Below, one piece after another: positions 43,329 through 52,453 of a stretch of DNA of 64,000 nucleotides. Source of the DNA: Roseimicrobium gellanilyticum (GTDB lineage Bacteria > Verrucomicrobiota > Verrucomicrobiia > Verrucomicrobiales > Verrucomicrobiaceae); assembly GCF_003315205.1 (NCBI RefSeq), contig NZ_QNRR01000002.1, positions 714,881 through 778,880 on the forward strand, read 5' to 3'. The notes below the pieces were generated by a model, which saw nothing but the letters and a program-made list of their open reading frames with translations, did no database searches and had not been told where the DNA came from. How positions within the stretch are numbered: position 1 is the stretch's first letter; each line of letters begins with the position of its first letter. The position numbers and the translations under genes were made by a program.

Positions 43329-46300
43329 ATGAAGAATCCCCCTCCGCAATTCACTTCGTTTCACAATATTCGTTCGTCCCAGGGAATTGCCCTGATCATG
43401 GTGCTGGTGGCCATCACCATGGTATCTCTGCTGATACTGGCATTCCTTGCCAGTGCCCGCACGGAACACCGTGCGGCCTCGGCCTTTTCGAACGTTGCCC
43501 AGGCACGCAACCTCTCTGAGCTGCCTGTAAATTTAGTCATCGGGCAGATCCGTCGTGCCACGGAACAGAATGGCCTGGAGCAGACGTGGGCCTCGCAGCC
43601 CGGATTGATTCGGGTGTTCGGGACGGAGCCGGATCCGCAGAACACAGGAACACGCTCCAAAACCGTCGCCCTATATAAGTTGTATTCAGACGAGACCATG
43701 GTGGTCATGAGATCCAATGCGAGCGCCACGGCGAATGGTATGAACATCAATGAGGTGAAAACCGCCCTCGATGCCGATGTTCAAGGCGTGCCGGACTGGC
43801 AGAAGACTCCGGGAATGTACGTGGACATCAATGAACCGGCCGTGGCTCTTGTGGAAGGCTCCGACAAGGTGCAGGCGGTGTTTCCCATCAGCGATCCTCG
43901 TGCCAGGTTCGCTCGCGACAACGGACGGGCCGTGGATGGTTTCCAGTTCGATGACAAGGCGGTGCCGGGTACGGTAGCACCTTCAGGTCCCGATGACGTG
44001 ACTGCGCGTCTGCCCATGCCCGTGAAGTGGCTCTACGTCCTTGCCGATGGTCAGCTCGCAGCTCCCAAAGGTGGAAACGCTGAGACAGGTCTGGCATTTG
44101 ACGATGCGACAGCACCGTCCTCCATTCCTTCGGCAACGAATCCCATCGTAGGGCGTGTCGCATTCTGGACTGACGATGAGAGCACGAAAATCAATGTAAA
44201 CACCGCGACGGAAGGAACGGCATGGGATGTGCCTCGCGCCTACACGGCCACCACGGTGAAGTTTGCCCGTCGACAGCCCGCGCAGAACGAATACTCACGT
44301 TACCCAGGGCACCCTGCGCAAACATCATTGAGCCCGGTCTTTCAGGCCTTCGGTTCCTCCCTGATCGTGGAGCCTTTCATGAGCGACAATGAGCTGGCGG
44401 CCGTATTGAAGCGTTACCACCAGTTCAGCCCGCGCACGCCGTGGGGTGGCAGTAAGGGAGGCACCATCGCACCCTCCGCTGCCGTCCTGATGGACAAGGA
44501 CGATCGGCTCTATACCACGCTCGACGAACTCGTGTTCGACCGGAATCGCAAGGAGCAGGATCCGATGTTGAGCCGTCAGGACATCGCGGCTGCGCGCTTC
44601 TTTCTCACTCCGCATAGTCGTGCACCTGAGTTGAACCTTTTCAATCAACCGCGAGTGATGCTTTGGCCCATCTCGGCGGACAGCGCGGAGCGCAATGCCA
44701 AGGACAAGCTGTTGGCGTTCGTCGGCACGGGTGGAGGCAAGGCATGGTACTTCTCCCGCCTGCGAAACTTCAAGAGCTTGACTGATGCTGGTTCCGCACA
44801 GAGCACCAGAGGCGATCTGGACCTGCAGGGCGGCGCCGGCAACGCTGCGCTGAAGCGCAATCGCGAACTTTATGAGAGCCACCTGATCCCGCTTACTGGC
44901 GGCAACAACGGTCAAGCGGCTTCGGCGCATAACATCCCCGGCTTCGGTGGGAACTTTGCCGCGAAATACACGGTGCCAAGGCGCAATCAGATCCTCACTG
45001 AGATGGTGGACTTCATCCGGTGGTCTGTGAATAGCTACAGTACCGGTCTTGCGCCTTCGTACACTTACACACCACCGCGCACGGGAGTCAGGACCGCGGA
45101 ATCCTCCGCAGTGCCTCTCATTCCCGGCAATGGCACGAAGGGCTTCGGGAGATTTCCCTCCATCACGGAGGCCGCGATCGTGTTCATGGCAACGAGCAAG
45201 AACAACGCCACGGGAGCAACGACCCGCATGCAGGCGTTCATTGCTCTGGAGCCATACATTCCCACCACCGGAGCTCCGGCGGCCACGGCAAATGTGCGCT
45301 ATCGTATTTCTGGTTTGAATGGATTCACCGTCAATGGGGTTCCCGTCTCATTCCCTGACGTGGATATGATCCGGTGCAACACGGCTGCCGGTTATCTGGA
45401 CTCCGGAGGCAGCACCGCCTTTTCCGGATTCGCGGCTCAATTCAAAAAGGCGAATCTCAGTTCCAGTGCCTCGGACCAGACGACGTCCGCTCGCCAGTTG
45501 GCAAGAGGGAACGAAGACAACGCCTTCCCCTTCTACAGTGCGCTCATCCCCGTGAATCCGACAGCGTCCGATTTCACCTTCAGCGGTGGCACCATCGCCA
45601 TTGAGGTGCTGACCGGCTTCTCGGACGCGGCCAGCGCGGAGCTTGTGCAGACACTGCATCTGACTTTCCCACCAACGACGCTGAAGGTGCCGAAGATGGT
45701 AAGCGAGGAATACAATACTCTGGCCAAGCGCATGCAAGTGAATGCCGGAGAGTTCGTGAAGTCCTTGATCCAACAAGGGGACATCACACGTAGCGTGGAA
45801 GTGGATGTGAATGGCCCCTCTCGAGGAGATCTTCGCCTTCTTTCCGCCATGAGTGATGTGCCCACCTCGTGGTTCACCACTCATCCCAGCTACACGGATT
45901 CCAATGTGGAGCGCCTGCATTTTCTCCGGCAGGGAAATCAGATGGTCGCCGGGCAGTTTGGTCCTGGTGATGGAGCTGGTGGTCCTCTAGGAGTATCTCG
46001 CAGCCAGAACCGGGCCGCCACGGTGAATACCGCAGGCACATTGGTCCGGGGCATCTGGTATGCACGTGACTCCACTCCTGCCGTAGGTCGCGGACAGGAT
46101 GGAGCGTTCAATACCAAGAATCGCCCTGGCGATTTCGACAATGGCACGGGACGCATCGAAGACGGTCCGTACATCAACAAGGCGGATGAGAACAACATCA
46201 TCACAAACAACCAGGCGGATGATGGCAGCCTTGGCTACTTCAGCCGGCACTCATTCACGGTGGAGGATGGTGTGACCTTCAGTCCCAATCGCCAGATCGC

Positions 46301-47267
46301 CTCGGCCATTGCATTCGGCTCACTGCCCTCAGGCATCTTCAGCAACCTGCCTGCGGATGTGCACAAACCCTGGCAGACCCTGTTGTTCTCACCCATTCCT
46401 CCCTCACGTACTACTCCTGCCAACGCACAGCCAGACGAGGACGATCATGAAGGATTCAAAGGTCCACGTGATCACCTCTGGCTCGACCTCTTCTGGATGC
46501 CGGTGGTCGAACCGTATGCCATCAGCGAGTCCTTTGCCACGGCTGGCAAGATCAACATGAACTACCAGTTGATGCCGTTCCGTCACATTGAACGCAGCAC
46601 GGGCATGCATGCCGCCCTGAAGCCCGTAATGCTCAGCGCCATCAGCCCTAACTCGGTCGGAGGCACCAATTCTGCCGGTTATGACAACGTGGGCGGGAAC
46701 AACTACAAGGAAGGCACCTTGCACAAGTACGAGTTGCACTACCACGTGAACCGCAGCGAGACGCTCAAGGGGCTTTCCGGGAGATTCACCTCAGGTGATG
46801 TCTTTCGGTCTCCCTCGGAGATCTGCGAAATCTTCCTTGTTCCCCAACGGCGCAGCGGTGCCAGCTACAACCCTGACGCCAACCCGCCTCCTGCCAACTA
46901 CAACGACATGGTGACGTGGTGGAATGGAGACATGAACGCTCCAGATGCCTTTGAACCAACCGGGGACAACAGCCGCGAAGCTCCCTATAACCAGCTCTAT
47001 CCAAGGCTGACGACCAAGTCGAATACCTTCACGGTCCACTTCCGTGTGCAAACCTTGAGAAAGGCGCGCAGTACGGATGCGGCGCACTGGTTCGAGGACA
47101 AAGATGAAGTCCTTTCGGAACATCGCGGCTCCGCAACACTCGAGCGTTATCTGGATCCGCAGGATCCGGAGCTTGCTGCCCTGGGCAACAATGGACCCAG
47201 TGACACCCAAAGCTGGGATCGCTACTACAGATTCCGCATCATCGAACGCAAAGTCTTCTCCCCCTGA
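43329..47267 (+). CDS. Verru_Chthon cassette protein A
   Basis: Product of 1312 aa from ATG 43329 (MKNPPPQFTSFHN); the frame opens at 43248. After a short charged leader comes a hydrophobic segment SSQGIALIMVLVAITMVSLLILAFLASAR, like the GspK/PilX start (GxALxxVLxxL). Unlike B-D it lacks the Glu after the processing Gly. The rest is a large, probably exported domain rich in Asn, Gly and Pro without recognised catalytic motifs. By name and neighbours it is protein A of the four-gene Verru_Chthon cassette. GspK-like proteins cap pseudopilus tips; a similar place is inference. It ends 11 bases before protein B's ATG. Confidence 0.85.
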   Translation: MKNPPPQFTSFHNIRSSQGIALIMVLVAITMVSLLILAFLASARTEHRAASAFSNVAQARNLSELPVNLVIGQIRRATEQNGLEQTWASQPGLIRVFGTEPDPQNTGTRSKTVALYKLYSDETMVVMRSNASATANGMNINEVKTALDADVQGVPDWQKTPGMYVDINEPAVALVEGSDKVQAVFPISDPRARFARDNGRAVDGFQFDDKAVPGTVAPSGPDDVTARLPMPVKWLYVLADGQLAAPKGGNAETGLAFDDATAPSSIPSATNPIVGRVAFWTDDESTKINVNTATEGTAWDVPRAYTATTVKFARRQPAQNEYSRYPGHPAQTSLSPVFQAFGSSLIVEPFMSDNELAAVLKRYHQFSPRTPWGGSKGGTIAPSAAVLMDKDDRLYTTLDELVFDRNRKEQDPMLSRQDIAAARFFLTPHSRAPELNLFNQPRVMLWPISADSAERNAKDKLLAFVGTGGGKAWYFSRLRNFKSLTDAGSAQSTRGDLDLQGGAGNAALKRNRELYESHLIPLTGGNNGQAASAHNIPGFGGNFAAKYTVPRRNQILTEMVDFIRWSVNSYSTGLAPSYTYTPPRTGVRTAESSAVPLIPGNGTKGFGRFPSITEAAIVFMATSKNNATGATTRMQAFIALEPYIPTTGAPAATANVRYRISGLNGFTVNGVPVSFPDVDMIRCNTAAGYLDSGGSTAFSGFAAQFKKANLSSSASDQTTSARQLARGNEDNAFPFYSALIPVNPTASDFTFSGGTIAIEVLTGFSDAASAELVQTLHLTFPPTTLKVPKMVSEEYNTLAKRMQVNAGEFVKSLIQQGDITRSVEVDVNGPSRGDLRLLSAMSDVPTSWFTTHPSYTDSNVERLHFLRQGNQMVAGQFGPGDGAGGPLGVSRSQNRAATVNTAGTLVRGIWYARDSTPAVGRGQDGAFNTKNRPGDFDNGTGRIEDGPYINKADENNIITNNQADDGSLGYFSRHSFTVEDGVTFSPNRQIASAIAFGSLPSGIFSNLPADVHKPWQTLLFSPIPPSRTTPANAQPDEDDHEGFKGPRDHLWLDLFWMPVVEPYAISESFATAGKINMNYQLMPFRHIERSTGMHAALKPVMLSAISPNSVGGTNSAGYDNVGGNNYKEGTLHKYELHYHVNRSETLKGLSGRFTSGDVFRSPSEICEIFLVPQRRSGASYNPDANPPPANYNDMVTWWNGDMNAPDAFEPTGDNSREAPYNQLYPRLTTKSNTFTVHFRVQTLRKARSTDAAHWFEDKDEVLSEHRGSATLERYLDPQDPELAALGNNGPSDTQSWDRYYRFRIIERKVFSP

Positions 47268-47278
47268 GCTTGCTTCTC

Positions 47279-47815
47279 ATGCAAAAACACCCCCCCTCCA
47301 TCACTACCCGGGCGTTCTCACTGCCCGAAGTCGCCCTCTCTCTGGGCATCGCCACCACGGCACTACTCACACTGATCTCGCTCCTGCCATTCGGCCTGGA
47401 TACCTTGCGCGAGTCCAGCAGCAAACAAGCCGAGGCCCGCATCCTCCAATCCGTACTGGACCGGTACCAATCCGGCATCTGGATGGAGAAGGACTCGGCC
47501 GGGGGCACCGGCAATGTATTGCTCAAGGATAGGCTGCTCTATTTTGACCAGACAGGCACCGAGATGGAAGATGCCTCCAGCGTCGAGTGCGACTATGTGG
47601 TGCAGATTCATATCGACGGTCCTCCCACCTTGCACGGAGATGCCAGCGACAATCCCTACCTGCGTCGCGTGCGGGTACGAGTAAGCGACCGGCCCAATGA
47701 TCCCCAGCGGGCCTTTGCAGATGGCTCCGGACACTACCACGAGCACAGCGTGTGGATCGCGCTTCTGGACCAGACTGGACCCCTGATGGGCCCTCTCCAT
47801 TCCTCTGAGCTGTGA
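47279..47815 (+). CDS. Verru_Chthon cassette protein B (pseudopilin-like)
   Basis: Product of 178 aa from ATG 47279 (MQKHPPSITTRAFSLPEVALSLGIATTALL). RAFSLPE is a type IV pilin-type prepilin peptidase site with Glu five residues after the cleavage point, followed by a hydrophobic helix. The exported domain has beta-strand character and ends in HSVWIALLDQTGP. Its stop overlaps the GTG of protein C (GTGA). It is the second gene of the cassette. Confidence 0.85.
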   Translation: MQKHPPSITTRAFSLPEVALSLGIATTALLTLISLLPFGLDTLRESSSKQAEARILQSVLDRYQSGIWMEKDSAGGTGNVLLKDRLLYFDQTGTEMEDASSVECDYVVQIHIDGPPTLHGDASDNPYLRRVRVRVSDRPNDPQRAFADGSGHYHEHSVWIALLDQTGPLMGPLHSSEL

Positions 47816-48876
47816 AAAGAACGCCTTCGCCTCACGGCTTCACTTTGATCGAGGTGCTGGTGTCCGTCTCCGTGCTCGCGCTGATGCTGACCATCCTCGC
47901 GGACATGATGACACGGACGCAAGATACCGTGACCAATGCCAGCGCGCATGCCACGGAGTTTCAGGAAGCCCGTCGTGCACTCGATGCCATCAGCAACACT
48001 CTGTCGCAGGCAACCATGGACGCGGTGTGGGCTTATCGCCGTTCCACGACGGATGCATCTGCCATCATTGGATATGATCGCACTTCCGATCATCACTTCA
48101 TTCTGGGGCCGGCATCTGATCTGTTGCGAAGGGACGCTGAGGCAGGGCAGGTGGTGTTTTTCCAGGCTCCCTTGGGGAAGACCAGGAATCAGGCAAAGAG
48201 CCGGTTGCATGACCTCGTGAATTGCTGCGGCTTCTACATCCAGTATGGAAGTGACCTCACTGAGCGTCCTGATTTCCTGAGGGCCGGGCAGGCCACAGTG
48301 CTGAATCCTGAACGCAAGCGTTTCAGGTTGATGCAATACACACAGCCTTCGGATGACAGCCTGCTGTATGGTGACGCTACGAGACTGGGGTTGAATCGGC
48401 TTTCCAATCGGAGTCAGGCGTTGCGGTGGTACCAGGATGATCTCGCCACCGCTTCCAAGCCGCTCGCGGATAACATCCTGGCATTGGTGCTAACACCATA
48501 TGCCACGCATGCCCAAGGGGCCACTACCTCGCTCTTGCCTGATCCGCAGTACCGCTACGATAGCAGGGACTTCCAGTGGAATGGCTTGAACGAAGCCAAC
48601 AAATCGCGCCGTCACCAACTCCCGCCAATGGTCAGTGTTACCATCGTCGTTGCCGAGGAGCGCAGCTTCGAAGCGCTTGTTTCCCGAAAGGGAGAGCAGG
48701 GGGCAGCAGAGGCGGTGCGAGGGGTTCTGCGAGACCGGTTCAAAGAACACGACAAGCTCAAGGTCGACCTTGAGCTGGTGCAACAAGGATTGAGTGCGCT
48801 GCGTCTGCACCACAAGGTGCTCAGCACCATGGTGGCGTTGCGTGGCTCCAAATGGATATCAGAAAATGAAATGTAG
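47812..48876 (+). CDS. Verru_Chthon cassette protein C (pseudopilin-like)
   Basis: A 354-aa protein starting at GTG 47812, which shares four bases with the stop of protein B. The N-terminal HGFTLIEVLVSVSVLALMLTILADMM is a canonical prepilin signal (GFTLIE) and helix, then a long domain with CGFYIQYGSD and SVTIVVAEERSFEALVSRKGEQGA. It resembles GspJ/PilW-type minor pseudopilins in plan. The C-terminus overlaps protein D. Confidence 0.87.
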   Translation: MKRTPSPHGFTLIEVLVSVSVLALMLTILADMMTRTQDTVTNASAHATEFQEARRALDAISNTLSQATMDAVWAYRRSTTDASAIIGYDRTSDHHFILGPASDLLRRDAEAGQVVFFQAPLGKTRNQAKSRLHDLVNCCGFYIQYGSDLTERPDFLRAGQATVLNPERKRFRLMQYTQPSDDSLLYGDATRLGLNRLSNRSQALRWYQDDLATASKPLADNILALVLTPYATHAQGATTSLLPDPQYRYDSRDFQWNGLNEANKSRRHQLPPMVSVTIVVAEERSFEALVSRKGEQGAAEAVRGVLRDRFKEHDKLKVDLELVQQGLSALRLHHKVLSTMVALRGSKWISENEM

Positions 48877-49483
48877 CAAATGGACATCACGCAGACACGG
48901 AGCCTTCACCCTCGTGGAGATTCTTGTCGTGATCACGCTCGTCGGCATGTTGATTACCATGGCGGCTCTCACCGTGCCCGGCGCGCTTGCCAGTCAGCGG
49001 CTCTCGGCTGCGGCTCGCCAGCTGTCCGCTGATCTCAATCATGCCACACTTATGGCACGAAAGGAAAATCGTCCGGTGGAGGTGCGTTTCTATCTGATGG
49101 ATCCGCTCATGCCACCGGGGGAGGTCGCGTGTCGCGGGTACCAAGTTGCTGTGGTCACAGGCTGGGATGCGGAAGGGCGACCAACCACGAGCTTGGATGC
49201 AGAAATGCAGCGCCTACCGGATGATGTGCTCCTCATGCCGAGCCCCACCTACAACACGCTTCATGGCAAGGCGATTCATGACAATGACAATTCAAACGCT
49301 GGAGGCGGCGCACCGTATGTCAGCTATTTCATCAACGGTGATGGAACGACCACGTTGCCCAGTCAGGCACCGGCCGTACTCACCTTGGTACGTGAGACCT
49401 CCGGTCGCATCCCTGCTTCACTGCCTTCGGATTACCGATCCGTGGTGATCGATCCTCAGACACATTTGTGCCGACTTTACTAA
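48866..49483 (+). CDS. Verru_Chthon cassette protein D (pseudopilin-like)
   Basis: Product of 205 aa from ATG 48866, overlapping the end of protein C by 11 bases. The prepilin site is GAFTLVEILVVITLVGMLITMAAL, followed by RLSAAARQLSADLNHATLMARKENRPVEVRF, a GspH/FimT-like pattern. The exported part ends in DYRSVVIDPQTHLCRLY. It is the last gene of the cassette, followed by about 510 bases without a gene and then a convergent PEP-CTERM gene. Confidence 0.87.
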   Translation: MKCSKWTSRRHGAFTLVEILVVITLVGMLITMAALTVPGALASQRLSAAARQLSADLNHATLMARKENRPVEVRFYLMDPLMPPGEVACRGYQVAVVTGWDAEGRPTTSLDAEMQRLPDDVLLMPSPTYNTLHGKAIHDNDNSNAGGGAPYVSYFINGDGTTTLPSQAPAVLTLVRETSGRIPASLPSDYRSVVIDPQTHLCRLY

Positions 49484-49993
49484 CTTGATGGGAGCATGGG
49501 ATGCTTTGACCCTGCACTTGTTTTTCTTGGGCAAAGACTCGCTTTTAGCACATCGGCTGTACACACCTTCAGGTGCATTCAGCTTTGCGGTGCGAGGTGG
49601 CGGTGCACGCCGCAAGGATCGGCAGGTTGTTAGAGCACTTTGGATAAATCCAACCGCAGAGCTTCTGATAGCGCTTTCCCGAATCTGCTCCTGCAGCTGC
49701 CGGTTGTTTTGGTAGAGATGCTGAAGGCCCTGGACTGTGCGCAGCACTGCTGCTGCTTTCCTCAGTGCAGCCTGCTGCACGCCCTGTTGCGACGAAGTCG
49801 CCAGGCTTTAATCGTTCCACGTTTGCTCGCAAGGCGGAAGGCCGGCCACCGTGCAGTATTGGAGTTGCGAGAACGGCGACTCGCCCCTGCCACCCCCAGA
49901 TCGATATGCGTTGAATGCCTCACGCACCTGCTCGCAGCCAGCATGATGTCAGCTGCGAGCCAAAGTTCAGCATGCTTTTTGACGAGCACGGTA
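49484..49993. other. Intergenic region between the cassette and the PEP-CTERM gene
   Basis: Both flanking genes end here. No convincing coding frame is seen in either strand, and no clear intrinsic terminator follows the cassette. The only structure is the GC-rich hairpin repeat at 49730-49783 annotated separately and its less structured flanks, which may be part of the same dispersed element. Confidence 0.45.
49730..49783. repeat. GC-rich hairpin repeat, copy 2
   Basis: The segment has the same ordered blocks as 7159-7215: CTGGACTG, GCGCAGC, GCTTTCC, then GTGCAGCCTGCTGCAC, a 16-base palindrome. The two copies are in the same orientation and differ by small indels. This supports a mobile or recombinogenic REP-like unit. 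Confidence 0.55.
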
Positions 49994-52453
49994 TCACTTC
50001 CGCACCGCTTTTCTGCGACGGCGCAGCATCGCGCTTGCTAGTCCAACAAGGGAAAGCATGGCCATCGAAGGTTCCGGCACCGCAGCACCCATGGCGGAAA
50101 GCATGAGGTCGTTGCCACCAAATAAAGTGCCGGTGTCAAAGTCTGCGCCATAGAACATCGCAAACTCCATGCCGTCGATGGTGACGAAGCCGTTGGCGCC
50201 CATGAGAAGGTACTGGGAAGCCAGATCGTTGTTGGACTCGTAGACCATGTTGAGGAAGTCATTTAGCCCAAAGCCATTCTCACTGACGACCACCCAGTAG
50301 CGGCTGCCTAGCCCCGTCTCACTGCCCTGCGCCCACGTGCCATTGATCACAGCACCGTCGATATTGAGGTCGCCGGTGATCGTAAGGCGGTCCGCCTTGA
50401 GTGCAGTCGAGCTGTCGAAGTTGACGAAGAGCGTGCTTTGCGATGCGGCTCCGGAAGTCGAGATGAGGTTCACATTGCCCTCGATGGTCAACTGGCCAAC
50501 GGTCGACATGGTTCCTCCGGTGATCGTACCATAGTTGCCGACCCACACGCCGCCCTCGGCTTTGATAGTTCCGGTGCCACCGATCAAACCACGACCCGTG
50601 GTATTGTTTTCCTGGCCAGCGCTATCATTTCCATGGCCAACGCGAATGCCAGCTGCGGCGCTGGTCTTTTCAAGGTAGCCATCGACAATCACGGTGCCGT
50701 TGGAGTCGTTCTGCCGCCCTACGAAAAAGAAGGCTTGGGGATCCGTCGATTGATCATAAACCCTGGCAGTCGAGCCGATGTACATGCTGCCCGTGCCTTT
50801 TTCACCGATCGTCATGTCACTGTTCAGGTGGTAGAGCTCTCCACCGGTCAAGGTGTAGGTGGCGGTGTGGCCTGCATTCAAGCCGATGGACATCGCGTTG
50901 GTCGCCGTGACCTTACCGCCGCTCTGCGTGATGGTGGCGGTGCCTGCAGACGTGTTGGTACCGAAGTCCGCTCCGGTATCCCCACCAGCGAAGAGGTTGC
51001 CTTTGATGAGCATTTCCCCCCCTTGAATATCGACGGTGGCAGTGCCAGCGCCACGAGCGAGGTTGAATGCTCCCACTTCCGCGTAGCCTGAGATGAGCCG
51101 GAAAGTGCCGTTCCCGTTCTGCCCTAGATACAGCGTGCCGCCAGCCATGACGAGCTCGCCGCCGTCCACTTGAATCAAGCCCGTGGCTGCTCCTTTGGTT
51201 GCGTTTGCCGCATTCACGCCCACCTGCATCGAGCTGTTGGCGGTGGTGTAATACTTGCCACCTTGATTCACATAGACGGCACCGTTGCTTCCTGCATTGT
51301 TGCCAATCCAATCCCAATTGGTGGAGCGGTTGATGAATTCGCCGCCACTTTCGATGGTCACGGTGCCTCTGCCGTCGTTGCCAATGTAAAGATCGCCCAC
51401 GTTGCCACCGGTATCGCGGATGAATTTGCCGTCCGTGCGGATGGTCAAGGTTCCAATGGCATTGGCACCCCTGCCGATGAAGGTGTTGTTCCTCGGAGGA
51501 GTCAGTCCACTCACAGGATCCACTGCGTTGGTCACGTGAATGTATTCAGCAGAGTTCTCCACGATCATGCGGCCTTCCCCGTTGTAGGCGATGTTCAGTT
51601 CACCATAGTACTGGGTCATCCTGGCCCCCACACCGTCCAGGTGCAGCAGTCCCTTGGTTGTGACTCCGTTGTTGGCGTTGCTGGCGGCCACCTCCACGTT
51701 TCCGCGGGCATTGAACTGCCCGCCGGCCTTGATGAGAAACACACTTTCGGTCGGAGAGGCATACCGGCCGATACGGGTGATGCTCTGGGTGATCGTCCAC
51801 TGATTGGTCGTGGCGTTGTAGACGGTGAGGGAGTTGGCGCCTTCCAGAATACCATCGGATTCGATGGTGATGAATCCCGCACTGCCGGGTGACCATGTAC
51901 CGTCCTGGGTTCCCAAATTCAGAGAAGTGGCCCGCCCGCTTGCCGCTCCGCTCAACTGGTCTCGGAGATTCAGTACTGCGGAACCGGCGGCTCCCGTACC
52001 GTCACCGATGCGGATGGTTCCCTGAGCATTGTTCTTCGCCCCCACTTGGATTTCGCCAGCTGGAAGATAGACAAAGCCACTCTTGATGTCCAACGTACCC
52101 TGACCATGGTTGCCGATACGTACCCAGGCTCCGCCCACGGTGTGGGCAAGGATGCCCCCGTCGACGGTGATGGTGTTACCATTGTCCACCCCGAAGTCGG
52201 TGGTCGCGCCACCGGAGGCATTGGTATTGCCCACACCGGTTCCCTTCCCACTATAGGTGATCGTATGACCAGCTCCAATAGTCACGCTGTCGCTCCCATT
52301 GGTACCGGTAAGGGGGGAGGTGCCTGTAGGAATCCAGATGGAAGCGGCGTCATCGATCCAGTGACCAGAGCCGTTGGAAACATACGGTTGGGCGAAGCTG
52401 GCGGATTGGAATACTGTAATAAATGAGATTGCAAAAAAACGATGTAGTGTCAT
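49994..52453 (-). CDS. PEP-CTERM beta-strand repeat protein
   Basis: An 819-aa exported protein. The signal peptide is MTLHRFFAISFITVFQSASF. The body is built from beta-strand repeats rich in Gly, Asn and Thr with recurrent phrases (IGNHGQGTLDIKSG, IGNDGRGTVTIESGGEF, VDGGELVMAGGTLYLGQNGNGT), as in autotransporter-associated beta-strand families. The C-terminus VPEPSMAMLSLVGLASAMLRRRRK is a PEP-CTERM tripartite sorting tail (Pro-Glu-Pro, hydrophobic helix, basic). Such proteins are recognised by exosortase, processed and anchored or released at the outer surface. No autotransporter barrel is present. It converges on the Verru_Chthon cassette. Confidence 0.93.
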   Translation of the reverse strand: MTLHRFFAISFITVFQSASFAQPYVSNGSGHWIDDAASIWIPTGTSPLTGTNGSDSVTIGAGHTITYSGKGTGVGNTNASGGATTDFGVDNGNTITVDGGILAHTVGGAWVRIGNHGQGTLDIKSGFVYLPAGEIQVGAKNNAQGTIRIGDGTGAAGSAVLNLRDQLSGAASGRATSLNLGTQDGTWSPGSAGFITIESDGILEGANSLTVYNATTNQWTITQSITRIGRYASPTESVFLIKAGGQFNARGNVEVAASNANNGVTTKGLLHLDGVGARMTQYYGELNIAYNGEGRMIVENSAEYIHVTNAVDPVSGLTPPRNNTFIGRGANAIGTLTIRTDGKFIRDTGGNVGDLYIGNDGRGTVTIESGGEFINRSTNWDWIGNNAGSNGAVYVNQGGKYYTTANSSMQVGVNAANATKGAATGLIQVDGGELVMAGGTLYLGQNGNGTFRLISGYAEVGAFNLARGAGTATVDIQGGEMLIKGNLFAGGDTGADFGTNTSAGTATITQSGGKVTATNAMSIGLNAGHTATYTLTGGELYHLNSDMTIGEKGTGSMYIGSTARVYDQSTDPQAFFFVGRQNDSNGTVIVDGYLEKTSAAAGIRVGHGNDSAGQENNTTGRGLIGGTGTIKAEGGVWVGNYGTITGGTMSTVGQLTIEGNVNLISTSGAASQSTLFVNFDSSTALKADRLTITGDLNIDGAVINGTWAQGSETGLGSRYWVVVSENGFGLNDFLNMVYESNNDLASQYLLMGANGFVTIDGMEFAMFYGADFDTGTLFGGNDLMLSAMGAAVPEPSMAMLSLVGLASAMLRRRRKAVRK

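Follow-up and report, generated by a model that had tools for sequence, protein, structure and literature searches.

In the type II secretion system (T2SS), four minor pseudopilins form a substrate-binding tip (PMC6211770). Myxococcus xanthus carries three clusters, each encoding four minor pilins and one PilY1, alongside a single pilus machine (PMC7541494). Surface proteins bearing MYXO-CTERM and GlyGly-CTERM tails have been found to depend on the T2SS (PMC11980579). In our literature search we found no paper naming the Verru_Chthon cassette (proteins A to D: TIGR02600, TIGR02598, TIGR02599, and TIGR02596), and among the papers examined no link of PEP-CTERM to pseudopilins was found. Here we compare one such cassette from Roseimicrobium gellanilyticum (family Verrucomicrobiaceae), together with the gene beside it, to these systems.

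The window analysed is a stretch of 64,000 nucleotides (contig NZ_QNRR01000002.1, positions 714,881 to 778,880), and the five genes of interest are listed in Table 1. A previous sequence-only reading of this DNA had proposed a complete Verru_Chthon cassette adjoining a beta-repeat protein with a PEP-CTERM tail. Every coordinate and junction it gave for genes A to D proved correct: an 11-base gap separates A and B, B and C share a 4-base GTGA overlap, and C and D overlap by 11 bases. Searches with the four cassette models placed all four proteins far above the NCBIfam cut-offs in a cluster on one strand, and these scores exclude that the identity of the cassette arose by chance. The window therefore holds the named cassette itself, without any difference. 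What we add to the Verru_Chthon family is a correspondence of its four proteins to the minor pseudopilins GspK, GspI, GspJ, and GspH, and a measured partnership with beta-repeat/PEP-CTERM genes.

Table 1. Genes of the cassette and the neighbouring repeat-protein gene, in positions of the window.
Gene	Product	Coordinates	Strand	Model score
A	Verru_Chthon_A (TIGR02600), 1312 aa	43329..47267	+	TIGR02600, 1412 bits (cut-off 332)
B	TIGR02598, 178 aa, prepilin-like, PilV/GspI-type	47279..47815	+	170 bits (cut-off 51)
C	TIGR02599, 354 aa, GspJ-type pseudopilin	47812..48876	+	398 bits (cut-off 257)
D	TIGR02596, 205 aa, GspH-type pseudopilin	48866..49483	+	157 bits (cut-off 70)
W	819-aa beta-repeat protein, Sec signal and PEP-CTERM tail	49994..52453	-	TIGR04393 and TIGR02595 above cut-off

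The prepilin-type N-termini proposed for B, C, and D can be read in the sequence as RA/FSLPE, HG/FTLIE, and GA/FTLVE, respectively. Each carries Glu5 of the processed prepilin helix, and this E is invariant in the alignments of all three families. Protein A begins with QG/IALIM, which has Met in place of Glu5, like GspK; the presence of Glu5 in B, C, and D and its absence from the K subunit is the pattern of the T2SS minor pseudopilins. The A protein of the window matched the GspK model NF037980 with an E-value of 2.2e-5, the similarity being confined to residues 18-91, and 19 of 26 A relatives, each scanned singly, also matched GspK. PilX_N was matched by a few A members, far fewer than matched GspK. 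An AlphaFold model of A reached a pLDDT of 89, and a PDB structure search with the 1200-residue model returned no clear match, though the size of the model makes this absence weak evidence. Searching PDB sequences with a profile of A likewise yielded no match. A is roughly four times as long as the 307-position GspK model and looks like an enlarged GspK-like member that lacks Glu5 in its prepilin-like N-terminus.

Among 30 relatives of B, PilV was matched by 12, XpsI by 8, and GspI by 4, while a GspI search with the window's own B using NCBIfam gave no match. The structure model of C (pLDDT 89) aligned to the GspJ-type chains EpsJ, XcpW, and GspJ with Z scores of 11-12.4 (12.4 for EpsJ, 3cfi_B, and 11.4 for 3ci0_J) versus 2.9 for the best unrelated chain, which gives C a GspJ fold. 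D scored at the gathering score of the Pfam GspH model PF12019, and GspH was matched by all 24 D relatives. With A resembling GspK, B resembling PilV/GspI, C having the GspJ fold, and D resembling GspH, each of K, I, J, and H has one counterpart, and by profile and model the cassette appears to resemble the minor pseudopilins family by family. The sequence-only reading had supposed a minor-pseudopilin set with a GspK-like member, which the profiles and the fold of C bear out. None of the window proteins reached the GspH, GspI, GspJ, or GspK equivalog cut-offs (A, 24.1 bits versus 130 for GspK; C, 18.4 versus 64.85 for GspJ; D, 43.5 versus 80 for GspH), and thus they may work like minor pseudopilins but are not filed as members. 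The cassette differs from the T2SS set GspH-GspI-GspJ-GspK (XcpUVWX) in these low scores, in the great length of A, and in having no major pilin or pseudopilin, motor, or secretion machine in its cluster.

The protein encoded by W begins with a Sec-type signal peptide, MTLHRFFAISFITVFQSASFA, recognized by eye, and ends in a PEP-CTERM tail, AVPEPSMAMLSLVGLASAMLRRRR. It exceeded the cut-offs of TIGR04393 (T5SS/PEP-CTERM repeat; 23.7 bits, cut-off 23) and TIGR02595 (PEP-CTERM; 18.3 bits, cut-off 16) by small margins, and fell just below the cut-off of the Pfam PEP-CTERM model PF07589. The Sec signal, PEP motif, hydrophobic helix, and basic cluster expected of an exosortase substrate are all present, and the genome encodes two exosortases. 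The repeats of W are of the TIGR04393 type and not of the TIGR02601 type found in the giant proteins beside most other cassettes of this genome. We considered PEPxR as a PEP-CTERM signature specific to cassette-linked proteins and rejected it, as most unlinked tails of the genome carry PEPxR and W does not. A tail of a different type from the PEPxR tails of the giant proteins, PEPGTTLL, is encoded immediately next to one of the genome's two exosortase matches (G000 C2:940679-941527; L056, L218). A scan for promoters and terminators returned no more sites than shuffled sequence.

We examined whether the placement of W beside the cassette could be meaningless using 65 cassettes fetched from five Verrucomicrobiaceae genomes (G000, G001, G002, G006, and G012) and annotated with local profiles built from the repeats, tails, and cassettes of the window's own genome. 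A beta-repeat/PEP-CTERM gene lay within 1 kb of 44 of the 65 cassettes, compared to about 1.5 expected by random placement, an enrichment of about 30-fold. The gene was co-directional with the cassette in 37 of the 44 linked cases, 33 of them within 300 bp. The binomial p of 3e-56 is computed as if cassettes were independent, which they are not, and a positional control is therefore the better guide: across 130 flanks, 48 such genes (37%) fell within the first kb, versus 0-1.6% per kb from 1 to 6 kb. On a tree of A, which has open forks, adjacency changed at least 14 times and side or orientation at least 13 times, and so the linkage is not the inheritance of one frozen operon. In genome G012, three A genes without adjoining B, C, and D (L165, L166, and L168) each have a divergent beta-repeat PEP-CTERM gene 245-612 bp upstream.

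The partnership is thus non-random within the Verrucomicrobiaceae. That the two are chance neighbours might be argued from the abundance of PEP-CTERM genes in this genome (29 hits), from W being convergent to A-D in the window with a transcript of its own, and from four of the genome's cassettes having no partner at all. The strength of the enrichment, its sharp decay with distance, and the conserved five-gene module described below refute this explanation within the family, and we give it hardly any credence.

Family searches and fetched stretches of the R. gellanilyticum genome revealed 11 cassettes. A co-directional giant PEP-CTERM gene of the TIGR02601 type adjoins the cassettes C12a, C3, C7, C10, and C1, and C1 (G000 C1:582000-625720; L040, L041) has such genes on both sides, with reading frames of 8045 aa and about 3620 aa (3622). 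A PEP-CTERM gene is found 4.2 kb downstream of C12b, and the cassettes without a nearby partner are C4, C5a, C5b, and C6. Most PEP-CTERM genes of the genome are not linked to a cassette. Elsewhere, the genome encodes three GspG proteins above cut-off, GspE/PilB-type ATPases, and secretins.

Orthologs of W were found in 3 of the 24 genomes searched (G012, G002, and G006; 56-62% identity), and a further one (59%) in Verrucomicrobium sp. BvORR106 (L071). All of these orthologs, 55-62% identical overall, lie directly upstream of an orthologous cassette and on its strand, each ending 20-40 bases before A. The A proteins of the window and of the four other loci group in a single clade (support 100%), outside which no A is adjoined by W. 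Weaker partial matches to W were seen in G019, and G001, from the same genus as the window, has neither W nor a member of the W-linked A clade. When the loci were compared gene by gene, the window had only W, A, B, C, and D in common with the others. Around these five, the genes vary between the window, L174, and L160/L179; matches in the flanks are confined to L179 and L071, apart from one short upstream stretch in common with L160. Since W and A-D are kept while their surroundings differ, these five genes appear to be inherited as a module. In G012, the W ortholog and its ABCD cassette are followed on the same strand by a giant beta-repeat gene and a second ABCD cassette (L160, L163).

The convergent layout of cassette and W that the sequence-only reading had described is true of the window but is the exception, as the partner is co-directional and upstream of A in the other four loci. 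One inversion of the A-D block with respect to W would produce the layout of the window, although a search for inverted repeats at the presumed breakpoints found only short, weak pairs, and none at both ends. We would like to note that W and A-D of the window cannot be one transcript, which counts against W being the cargo of this cassette.

That same reading had also proposed checking whether cassettes neighbour PEP-CTERM or beta-repeat genes more often than expected at random, and had named a lack of such enrichment as evidence against its model. Inside the Verrucomicrobiaceae the enrichment is present, but the link is weaker outside the family, where such a gene lay within 1 kb in 8 of 52 loci. 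PEP-CTERM proteins and cassettes also occur apart: the genomes G020, G022, and G023 have 20-55 PEP-CTERM hits and no cassette, and cassettes without any PEP-CTERM hit are found in G017 and G021. Neither therefore needs the other, and the cassette does not serve as a general exporter of PEP-CTERM proteins. In three Verrucomicrobiales metagenome-assembled genomes (L118, L122, and L132), the cassette is split, with B, C, and D located some 4 kb away from A and on the other strand. Cassettes also occur in contigs labelled Betaproteobacteria (L143) and Akkermansia muciniphila (L134), which are possibly misbinned and would otherwise represent transfer.

This separability across genomes would fit a relationship of co-regulation only, with the cassette and the beta-repeat gene needed under the same conditions and exported independently. 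Outside the family (flanks L073-L148), regulators of the LacI, GntR, IclR, and MarR types and the glycoside hydrolases GH2 and GH130 adjoin cassettes instead, somewhat more often than they occur among the more distant genes used as a control, which could be explained in the same way. Mere co-regulation does not readily account for W being confined to one cassette clade, nor for a five-gene module that is kept while its neighbours change, and we consider it rather improbable.

That cassette and long repeat-protein gene travel together in relatives suggests instead that the tip exports or displays the repeat protein. The model that we favour, and to which we give an even chance, is that A-D are minor-pseudopilin tips, exchangeable with one another, each delivering its partner (W in the window) on a shared T2SS or type IV pilus engine. 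Starting from the observed family identity, K-I-J-H resemblance, enriched linkage, and module of W with A-D, we infer that A-D would form a tip complex with A in the place of GspK at the very tip, B as GspI, C as GspJ, and D as GspH. This tip would be mounted on a T2SS- or type IV pilus-type machine encoded elsewhere in the genome. W, as the dedicated partner of A-D, would leave the cytoplasm by Sec, stay anchored in the inner membrane through its PEP-CTERM helix, and then be trimmed by an exosortase; the tip would bind W and carry it through a secretin to the cell surface. The 11 cassettes of this genome, many with their own giant beta-repeat protein, would then be exchangeable tips on a shared engine. 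The four partnerless cassettes of the genome, its many unlinked PEP-CTERM genes, the weaker link outside the family, and the lack of a PDB match for the large domain of A speak against this model. The MYXO-CTERM and GlyGly-CTERM proteins are a parallel in being C-terminally anchored, processed surface proteins that cross the outer membrane by the T2SS (PMC11980579); the tag of W, in contrast, is a PEP-CTERM for exosortase, and W is at most a putative T2SS substrate.

Clusters 1-3 of M. xanthus resemble the cassettes in that a genome with a single machine has several sets of four minor pilins, and every set comes with one large partner (PMC7541494). They also point to our main alternative, in which a true type IV pilus is primed by the cassette and W, as a tip adhesin like PilY1, remains on the fibre once extended, belonging to the filament rather than being cargo. 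Clusters of FimU-PilV-PilW-PilX with PilY1 have the same make-up, and M. xanthus likewise has several copies for one machine (PMC7541494); PilV is the best match of B members, a few A members match PilX_N, and fimbriae have been observed at the prostheca tips of V. spinosum (PMC12283558). The partner also tends to adjoin A, as PilY1 genes cluster with minor pilins: among A-first cassettes 17 of 23 have it at the A end, and among A-last cassettes 7 of 9 (p 0.015, kinship ignored). W differs from the partners in M. xanthus in having beta-repeats and a PEP-CTERM tail, and Pfam and NCBIfam searches matched it to no PilY1 model at E-values up to 0.1. Its C-terminal membrane anchor and sorting tag, and the preference of A for GspK over PilX_N, argue further against a pilus adhesin, which we regard as unlikely, if still a serious contender.

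The exchangeable-tip model, extended to the family, leads to a more tentative picture that we think may be right but rather doubt: the Verrucomicrobiaceae would possess numerous exchangeable pseudopilus tips, every one paired with a giant beta-repeat protein of its own that bears an exosortase tag. Such pairs, with tip and cargo inherited as one module, would give proteins as long as about 8,000 residues a dedicated path through the outer membrane. If true, M. xanthus would be joined by a second lineage in which many alternative tip sets seemingly serve one pilus-type machine. By its sequence, the cassette of the window appears to be a real, well-annotated family member, and its partnership has strong genomic support within one bacterial family. 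The Verru_Chthon cassette has so far been a name without a function; its four proteins can now be placed, by resemblance, in a known architecture, and the copy in the window has a named candidate for its cognate partner, which bears on how giant PEP-CTERM proteins may cross the outer membrane.
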